A DNA stretch of 36,086 bases, from contig JAGGVR010000076.1 of NCBI GenBank assembly GCA_021157925.1, positions 1-36,086 on the forward strand, written 5' to 3'. Of this stretch, positions 15,133 through 16,526 are shown piece after piece. Made by a program: the position numbers and the translations under genes. The stretch is from Staphylothermus sp. GTDB taxonomy: Archaea; Thermoproteota; Thermoprotei_A; Sulfolobales; Desulfurococcaceae. Positions within the stretch are counted from its first letter, which is position 1. Each line of letters starts with the position of its first letter. The notes beneath the pieces were generated by a model. It was not told the origin of the DNA, ran no database searches, and saw nothing but the letters and a program-made list of their open reading frames with translations.

Positions 15133-15141
15133 TACTTACTA

Positions 15142-15152
15142 AAATATTTAAG
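15142..15152 (+). promoter_or_regulatory. TATA box of the structured RNA / rpl35ae transcript
   Basis: AAATATTTAAG is preceded by CTAA and lies about 26 bases before the first G of GGCTAACCGCCC at 15176, the expected distance for an archaeal transcript start. The sharp switch from about 20% to over 65% GC at 15176-15182 agrees with the RNA beginning there. Confidence 0.55.
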
Positions 15153-15175
15153 GACGAAAAAATAAATATATTATA

Positions 15176-15346
15176 GGCTAACCGCCCACGCCCCCGGGTC
15201 CCGGGCCCCCGGGCAAAATGATGTTTTGGCTAAGTTGTGCTTAGCCAAACAGAGAGCCCGGGGATACTCCACCTGGGGGCGCCCTCTCCGATGGGAGAGG
15301 GTGGAGCTAGTGGTGGAGTTGCCTGGGCCACTGGCTCCGTGGGCGG
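15176..15346 (+). ncRNA. GC-rich structured RNA domain upstream of rpl35ae, class unknown
   Basis: The island is far richer in GC than anything else in the window, as structured RNAs of hyperthermophiles are. Stems I can pair: P1 closes the domain, CCGCCCACG (15182-15190) with CGTGGGCGG (15338-15346). An 8-bp stem CCCCGGGC (15207-15214) with GCCCGGGG (15256-15263) encloses a hairpin TTTGGCTAAG/CTTAGCCAAA (15225-15234, 15240-15249). A hairpin CCCTCTCC-GATG-GGAGAGGG is at 15282-15301. A 10-bp stem with one G-U pair joins 15304-15313 and 15328-15337. The loop of the last can pair six bases with ACTCCA at 15266-15271, a possible tertiary contact. I see none of the conserved cores of RNase P RNA, SRP RNA, tRNA or 5S rRNA. 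It may be a free RNA, but its position and the next element suggest a cis-acting leader. Confidence 0.65.
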
Positions 15347-15347
15347 G

Positions 15348-15393
15348 CTAGGGCTTCTCCTGAGAGATCACTACAAGTCCTAGACGGTGATCT
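15348..15393 (+). promoter_or_regulatory. Pseudoknot-capable element hiding the rpl35ae ribosome-binding site
   Basis: One base after the P1 stem of the RNA domain, CTAGGGCTT (15348-15356) can pair with AAGTCCTAG (15375-15383): nine pairs with one G-U. AGATCAC (15365-15371) can pair with GTGATCT (15387-15393), seven perfect pairs that include the ribosome-binding site GGTGATC (15386-15392) of rpl35ae. The order of strands (A5', B5', A3', B3') is that of an H-type pseudoknot; alternatively the two stems exclude each other. Either way a structural switch could open or close translation. Confidence 0.55.
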
Positions 15394-15395
15394 TG

Positions 15396-15656
15396 ATGAA
15401 GGTATTGAAAGGAGTAATAATAGGATATAGGAGAGGTCCTAGGAGCCAATATAATAGACAAGTTCTTATCAAAGTTAAAGAAGAGCATCCTCTGGGCTCA
15501 TTATGTGGTGCTAAGATATGGGTAATTGATAAGTATGGTAACAAGTATTGGGGCAAGATCACGAGGCTTCATAGCAAAAGAGGCATATATAGAGCTTTAT
15601 TTTACAAATCCATACCTGGACAGTTAATAAATAGTACTGTCCATATAGTGAAGTAA
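15396..15656 (+). CDS. rpl35ae: Large-subunit ribosomal protein L35Ae
   Basis: The roughly 86-residue protein matches eukaryotic/archaeal eL33 (L35Ae), a small beta-barrel protein of the large subunit. It starts KVLKGVIIGYRRGPRSQYNR, has GSLCGAKIWVIDKYGNKYWGKI in the middle (the usual 'G..v.W.....k...GkI') and RLHSKRGIYRALFYKSIPGQ near the end, then finishes with a strand (STVHIVK). The start is ATG 15396 with GGTGATC at 15386-15392. The family's N-terminus begins at the same place, so the GTG at 15387 is unlikely. The ribosome-binding site can be buried in an RNA stem (see 15348-15393), suggesting translational control. Confidence 0.93.
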   Translation: MKVLKGVIIGYRRGPRSQYNRQVLIKVKEEHPLGSLCGAKIWVIDKYGNKYWGKITRLHSKRGIYRALFYKSIPGQLINSTVHIVK

Positions 15657-15725: not shown

Positions 15726-16526
15726 TTGCCACGTAGAAAAATTACTAGGGGAAAACATGCATCAATACTTGATTTCTTAAGTATTTCATCCTCTAATAAA
15801 AATAAGGATCTTGACAAAACTCAGGAAAAAGAAGAAACAATTGCCTCAAATGAAGATATTAATAAAGTAAAAGAGAAACTAGAAGAAAGTGGTACTAATA
15901 AGTCTGAGGAAAATCTTAAAGAAAAGGCTGGATCAGCTAAGGAATCTATTGATGAAGATATAAGTGATTTATTAAGCATTCTAGGTAAAAGAAAAACTAT
16001 TAATAAGTCTCTCATGGAAACAACAAGTTCATCTACAGAGCAAGTTCCCATTAGTGAAATAGCTAATGAAAATAGTGATCTTTCAACCAAGAGCATTGCA
16101 GAAATCGATGTCGGTAAACTCGAGCTACCAACGGGTGAAATACTCGATAAGATTCTATGGGAAGGATTGAGTAAGGATAATGTAGTATGTGACTCTACGG
16201 GTAAATGTACTGATGGTATTAGTGTTGGGGAAATTTATAATGATCAATATGGGTTTAGGAGACAGCGTGGATATGTAAATACTACGAGGCTTCCAGTATA
16301 TACTGATTGGATTGTAGAGGAGGGGCTTGTTAAGAAAATATTGCCACGTGCATATGGTTTGAAGACAAATAGAGGTGCAGTAGCACTTATCCCTGAAGAC
16401 TTCTTATGTGAGTTACAAGCACGTTATGGTGTCGTACTTCTTAATTACGATAGATGTACTAAGTATAATTCTGTATTAGGATATGCTCAAGCTAAAACAT
16501 CGAGACGTTCTAGAAAGAAGAAGTAG
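15726..16526 (+). CDS. Unknown protein with disordered N-terminus and conserved-looking C-terminal domain
   Basis: 266 residues starting at TTG 15726, 69 bases after rpl35ae in the same direction. The first 130 residues are charged and rich in Lys, Glu, Ser and Asn, probably disordered or coiled (LDKTQEKEETIASNEDINK). The last 130 form a compact domain with VVCDSTGKC, FRRQRGYVNTTRLPVYTDWI and FLCELQARYGVVLLNYDRC. Its four or five cysteines could form disulfides or bind metal. It ends in a very basic tail (SRRSRKKK), suggesting nucleic-acid binding. I do not recognise a family. Context beside a ribosomal protein hints at a translation or RNA role, no more. Confidence 0.65.
   Translation: MPRRKITRGKHASILDFLSISSSNKNKDLDKTQEKEETIASNEDINKVKEKLEESGTNKSEENLKEKAGSAKESIDEDISDLLSILGKRKTINKSLMETTSSSTEQVPISEIANENSDLSTKSIAEIDVGKLELPTGEILDKILWEGLSKDNVVCDSTGKCTDGISVGEIYNDQYGFRRQRGYVNTTRLPVYTDWIVEEGLVKKILPRAYGLKTNRGAVALIPEDFLCELQARYGVVLLNYDRCTKYNSVLGYAQAKTSRRSRKKK

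Follow-up and report, generated by a model that had tools for sequence, protein, structure and literature searches.

The 36,086-nucleotide stretch of Staphylothermus DNA analyzed here (the window) appears to hold two evolutionarily separate neighbors: a structured noncoding RNA (ncRNA), which comparisons between genomes identify as a new RNA family, and the start of the ribosomal protein gene rpl35ae, which lies in a predicted hairpin. In the reading that we tentatively prefer, one that falls a little short of probable, the ncRNA is a free-standing gene and the hairpin would occlude the ribosome-binding site (RBS) of rpl35ae, damping or conditioning translation initiation on a co-transcribed mRNA.

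Results

The ncRNA spans positions 15176 to 15350 of the forward strand, on which all of the window features below lie, as delimited by covariance models and covariation. It is ~175 nt long and is modeled as a three-way junction, composed of P1 (15176-15178/15347-15349 and 15182-15189/15339-15346), P2 (15190-15199/15271-15280 and above), P3 (15281-15289/15294-15302) and P4 (15303-15313/15328-15338). Rfam searches at gathering and at relaxed thresholds gave no family match for it, and no description was found in the literature searched. A first covariance model, built from five homologues, detected the RNA in 13 genomes of the archaeal family, and a second, built from those 13, in 17 of 40 family genomes belonging to 11 genera, two complete genomes among them, the two weakest matches scoring 44 and 33 bits. 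Searches of samples from the order and the class found none outside the family. In the alignment of 13 sequences, which was fitted to the model and as such favors structure, 95.2% of the cells at 64 pairs are paired and 40 pairs have changed on both sides; none of 500 shuffles reached these values (means, 75.5% and 27 pairs), and the margin is large. Sliding the structures by 1 to 3 columns left 12 to 15 two-sided pairs. By this comparative evidence, the ncRNA represents a new structured RNA family of one archaeal family (Desulfurococcales-type archaea). One homologue, in genus g2 (locus L083, 1501 to 1646, reverse strand), is shortened to 146 nt and scores 44 bits; it lies behind aspS on the same strand and is not divergent from it.

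The alignments also reveal a conserved, covarying pseudoknot inside the ncRNA, formed by the P2 internal-loop strand ACUCCA (15266-15271) and the P4 loop UGGAGU (15314-15319). The partners are the same in g1, the genus of the window, and in g3; they read CCCCC/GGGGG in g7, GGCCCA/UGGGCC in g8 and ACCAC/GUGGU in g9. When partners were permuted, the own partners of six clades came out on top of 720 arrangements, and for ten clade representatives 0 of 20,000 permutations reached the own-partner total, figures that are somewhat flattering, with the loops taken literally and their boundaries set by eye. Four homologues added after the pairing rule was fixed also pair, two of them with 7 bp.

The P2 arm contains a kink-turn (k-turn) candidate (15217-15253; AAU-GA at 15217-15221 with GA at 15252-15253), seen by eye in most homologues, which is possibly an L7Ae site. 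An L7Ae-binding ribonucleoprotein (RNP) would be the likeliest kind of RNA here. A C/D or H/ACA guide was rejected, a convincing box pair or an ACA at a conserved position being absent by eye. The ncRNA resembles k-turn ncRNAs of hyperthermophilic archaea (Pyrococcus sRkB, PMC3124441; HgcG, RF00064) in being GC-rich in an AT-rich host and in its candidate k-turn. Its identity as HgcG itself is unsupported: the match scored 14.9 bits against a cutoff of 77, and 7 of 13 genomes tested have HgcG-like candidates at other sites. These sub-threshold candidates (L053 to L059, 24 to 48 bits against the same cutoff, including L056 at 165 to 344 of contig C51 in the source genome of the window) are possibly divergent HgcG. 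RNase P RNA (RF00373) and SRP RNA (RF01857) share with the ncRNA that they are conserved, structured archaeal RNAs, and they bind L7Ae. Both were dismissed as its identity, since their family models have no match in the window and copies reside at other loci (RNase P RNA in G000, the source genome, and in G020 and G065; SRP RNA in G020 and G065). No SRP RNA was found in G000, which is an incomplete, fragmented metagenome-assembled genome (MAG) of 158 contigs.

Upstream of the ncRNA, a TATA-like element (TATTTAAGG, 15145-15153) was assigned by eye ~27 nt before the RNA start and is probably its promoter and, in g1, that of rpl35ae as well. A comparable AT-rich box at similar spacing (~27 nt before P1) occurs in the homologues whose upstream DNA was compared. 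Relative to L002, a related MAG that provides the second sequence of g1, positions 15136-15175 carry 1 substitution in 40, versus 31 in 140 for the remaining intergenic region. A scan for sigma-70 promoters and terminators was set aside because it does not apply to archaea.

We examined the genes around the ncRNA. aspS adjoins it in 15 of the 16 loci with that flank (exception, L080). A gene for a 266-amino-acid protein (15726-16526 in the window) comes after it in g7, g8, g10 and genome G186, and rpl35ae intervenes between the two only in g1 and g3. No L35Ae was detectable in those genomes of g7, g8 and g10 that carry the RNA and are nearly complete, and in genome G135 rpl35ae lies ~1 Mb from the ncRNA. 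The location beside aspS, the RNA's own TATA-like box and the absence or distance of rpl35ae in most cases argue that the ncRNA is a gene in its own right, with no special tie to rpl35ae, and not an aptamer of that gene. The initial annotation had proposed a sensor followed by an expression platform. A riboswitch sensor would be expected consistently upstream of the gene that it regulates; this RNA adjoins aspS in 11 genera, mostly with no rpl35ae behind it, and that layout is not supported.

Two side observations concern these neighbors. The 266-amino-acid protein has no Pfam match above the cutoff; it is kept behind the ncRNA in several genera with 38 to 46% identity over much of its length, and with 86% identity within g1. 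L35Ae (eL33) is patchy, in that the Pfam model finds it in 6 of 40 family genomes and many near-complete genomes have no detectable copy.

In the window, rpl35ae (15396-15656; L35Ae/eL33, 86 amino acids) was identified as such by PF01247 (E value, 7e-12), in agreement with the earlier assignment. Its ATG, at 15396, follows by 3 nt the Shine-Dalgarno (SD) site GGTGATC (15386-15392), which is identical in L002. Judged by the length preceding RRGPR, the start agrees with that in g3; a GTG at 15387 was discarded as the start codon since the ATG at 15396 lines up with the g3 start. In g1, rpl35ae begins 46 bases behind the ncRNA. No TATA-like element was found in the linker between them in this genus, so rpl35ae most likely rides on the ncRNA transcript.

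The initial annotation had reported two stems around this start, interleaved as an H-type pseudoknot that contains the SD site, and both are present in the sequence. Stem A (15348-15356/15375-15383) has 9 bp, including one G-U. Stem B pairs the SD with an anti-SD strand (core, 15365-15371/15387-15393, 7 Watson-Crick bp) and grows to 9 bp through two flanking G-U pairs (15364-15372/15386-15394). Stem A had been placed one base beyond the RNA domain; in the covariation-supported model, 15348-15349 pair with 15176-15177 in P1. The combined stacking energy of the two stems (-31.4 kcal/mol) was matched by 3 of 10,000 dinucleotide shuffles, by 1 of 10,000 in which the SD was left unshuffled, by 1 of 1,202 51-nt segments across the 36 kb and by 0 of 36 other gene leaders. 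Stem strength of this rarity shows that the interleaved pairing is beyond chance.

The 5′ arm of stem A has a longer partner, missing from the initial annotation. Linker positions 15348-15362 can pair with coding positions 15428-15442, the codons around YRRGPR, in a 15-bp helix (helix H) that encloses stem B together with the SD and the start codon. A helix of this strength was reached by 10 of 10,000 linker shuffles, and its 3′ arm is constrained by protein coding. Between 37 and 85°C, the predicted probability of helix H is 0.97 to 1.0 in the window and 0.94 to 1.0 in L002. Stem A has a predicted probability of ~0 in the nested ensemble because helix H occupies its 5′ arm. Helix H is thus dominant over stem A in the predictions. 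The pseudoknot form, which would need both stems favored over their competitors, loses one of them to this helix.

Staphylothermus and its relatives grow at ~85 to 92°C. The predicted probability of stem B is 0.52 (window) and 0.99 (L002) at 37°C and 0.07 and 0.15 at 85°C. At the higher temperature each of the two stems is unstable by prediction, with stem B largely open and the SD largely free of pairing, so that occlusion in vivo may be slight. The folding program handles nested structures only, and the energy of the A/B pseudoknot was estimated apart from it; the rough values, which use the 37°C penalty, are -20.9 kcal/mol for 37°C and +2.7 kcal/mol for 85°C. Its third loop would have only 2 to 3 nt to span the 9-bp stem. 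The reported pseudoknot is, by these predictions, a minor alternative fold at most.

Between the window and L002, differences number 5 of 48 positions in the linker, 3 of 172 in the RNA and 24 of 261 in the coding sequence. L002 keeps 8 of 9 stem A pairs (one terminal pair is broken), 9 of 9 stem B pairs, with a G-U turned into G-C, and 15 of 15 helix H pairs. Across stems A and B, this two-sequence comparison yields three pairing-compatible changes, one broken pair and zero double changes; the linker is known from these two sequences only, and so small a number of compatible changes cannot prove selection. Linker divergence is 10%, versus 22% for upstream intergenic DNA, a difference that is not significant (P = 0.09; 0.23 in a comparison with a second neutral proxy).

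Neither stem is present in g3, represented by two genomes that both retain the RNA and rpl35ae. This outcome had been named beforehand as one that would refute the switch. SD sequestration is thus not kept along with the supposed sensor. The g3 linker contains a TATA-like box (TTTAAATA/TCTAAATA) centered ~27 nt before the rpl35ae ATG. An unrelated 12-bp helix covers GGAGG and AUG there, with two consistent changes between the two species; rpl35ae of g3 may be leaderless, in which case this hairpin would be absent from its mRNA.

The folding z-scores of the start region are -3.05 for the window, -3.86 for L002, -1.94 for L004 and -1.59 for L005, the two g3 loci, with one set of bounds; other bounds give -3.09 for L004 and -1.65 for L005. 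Start regions of 35 other window genes served as controls (mean z, 0.04; lowest, -1.84). Both genera with rpl35ae behind the RNA, g1 and g3, have the start inside a hairpin, and the hairpin sequences differ. rpl35ae starts with no RNA upstream are mostly unstructured, with z mostly near 0, and a structured start as an order-wide trait was rejected on this ground. The start in L026 (family f3) is an exception, strongly structured at z = -3.55. An association between position behind the RNA and a structured start is a lead only, drawn from predicted folds in two genera with many regions compared. Of the initial proposal, the placement of the g1 RBS and start in significant RNA structure holds up; its pseudoknot form and riboswitch layout do not.

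Discussion

We propose, with some reserve, that a free-standing ncRNA and an rpl35ae start hairpin are adjacent but separate in evolution. Comparison shows the ncRNA to be its own gene beside aspS with a promoter-like box, and in g1 rpl35ae would most likely be translated from transcripts that continue past it. The linker would pair with the YRRGPR codons in helix H, inside which the GAUCAC strand would pair with the SD in stem B. The hairpin may thereby occlude the RBS and damp or condition initiation on the messages that a strong ncRNA promoter would supply.

The main rival, itself a serious possibility and the less likely of the two, is that the pairings have no function and are a lineage-specific coincidence, only the ncRNA being real. 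They would build on an SD for which GAUCAC-like strings are always complements and on codons that are fixed regardless. Coincidence is also consistent with the loss of the stems in g3, with a comparison of just two sequences in which one stem A pair is broken, with the instability of the pairings at 85°C and with a linker divergence not significantly under neutral proxies. It accounts poorly for how rare such pairing is among shuffles and among all the other leaders in the window, for z-scores between -3 and -4 in the two MAGs and for the separate start hairpin of g3.

An improbable alternative is that the linker structure acts on the 3′ end of the ncRNA, marking or protecting it for processing or insulation, since co-transcription would make it necessary to sever the RNA from rpl35ae. 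Helix H and stem A do start at the 3′ base of P1, and g1 lacks a T-rich stretch between the RNA and rpl35ae, where most relatives have AT-rich spacers. Against this role, no bulge-helix-bulge motif was seen (by eye only), and the RNA of other genera does without such a linker element.

We consider very unlikely the H-type pseudoknot switch of the initial annotation, in which the upstream RNA would be a sensor of a ligand, of temperature or of a ribosomal protein that gates the RBS of rpl35ae. Its stems pair beyond chance and are mostly kept in L002, and helix H and stem A have a strand in common and could alternate. RBS occlusion also has a precedent in archaea, the translational self-repression of L7Ae via an RBS-occluding k-turn in the l7ae 5′ UTR, Staphylothermus marinus being among the species tested (PMC5539422, PMC6298567), which tempers the earlier remark that translational control would be rare in archaea. 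What weighs against the switch is that the RNA is not tied to rpl35ae, that g3 lacks the stems, that stem A is not predicted to form, that the pseudoknot estimate is positive at 85°C and that its third loop is so short. No ligand-sensing step is indicated. Similarly unlikely is that an ncRNA shared among these archaea was recruited as a cis-regulator, as an L7Ae-bound RNP whose assembly would be coupled to rpl35ae translation in g1 and g3 only, the linker switching between helix H and a stem A that joins stem B in the pseudoknot.

Translational riboswitches of the preQ1 type have a pseudoknot over the SD. The rpl35ae leader is similar in that its SD belongs to the 3′ strand of what could be an H-type pseudoknot; unlike them, it has no gene-tied aptamer, its pseudoknot is not conserved and a stronger nested helix competes. 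What it shares with L7Ae autoregulation is a leader structure, here a predicted one, that occludes the RBS of an archaeal ribosomal protein gene. The l7ae leader is a short k-turn over the RBS that folds only upon L7Ae binding (PMC5539422, PMC6298567), whereas the k-turn candidate here belongs to a separate ncRNA ~130 nt upstream and the rpl35ae RBS pairs with the linker. By eye, no k-turn strand pair was found around 15386-15398.

If the reading of two separate neighbors with an occluding start hairpin is true, the rpl35ae leader would add another archaeal ribosomal protein gene with an occluded start. The analysis also exposes an unannotated RNA family, ~175 nt long, with a three-way junction, a covarying pseudoknot and a candidate k-turn, at a nearly fixed site beside aspS in 11 genera, and this family is open to direct testing in culture.
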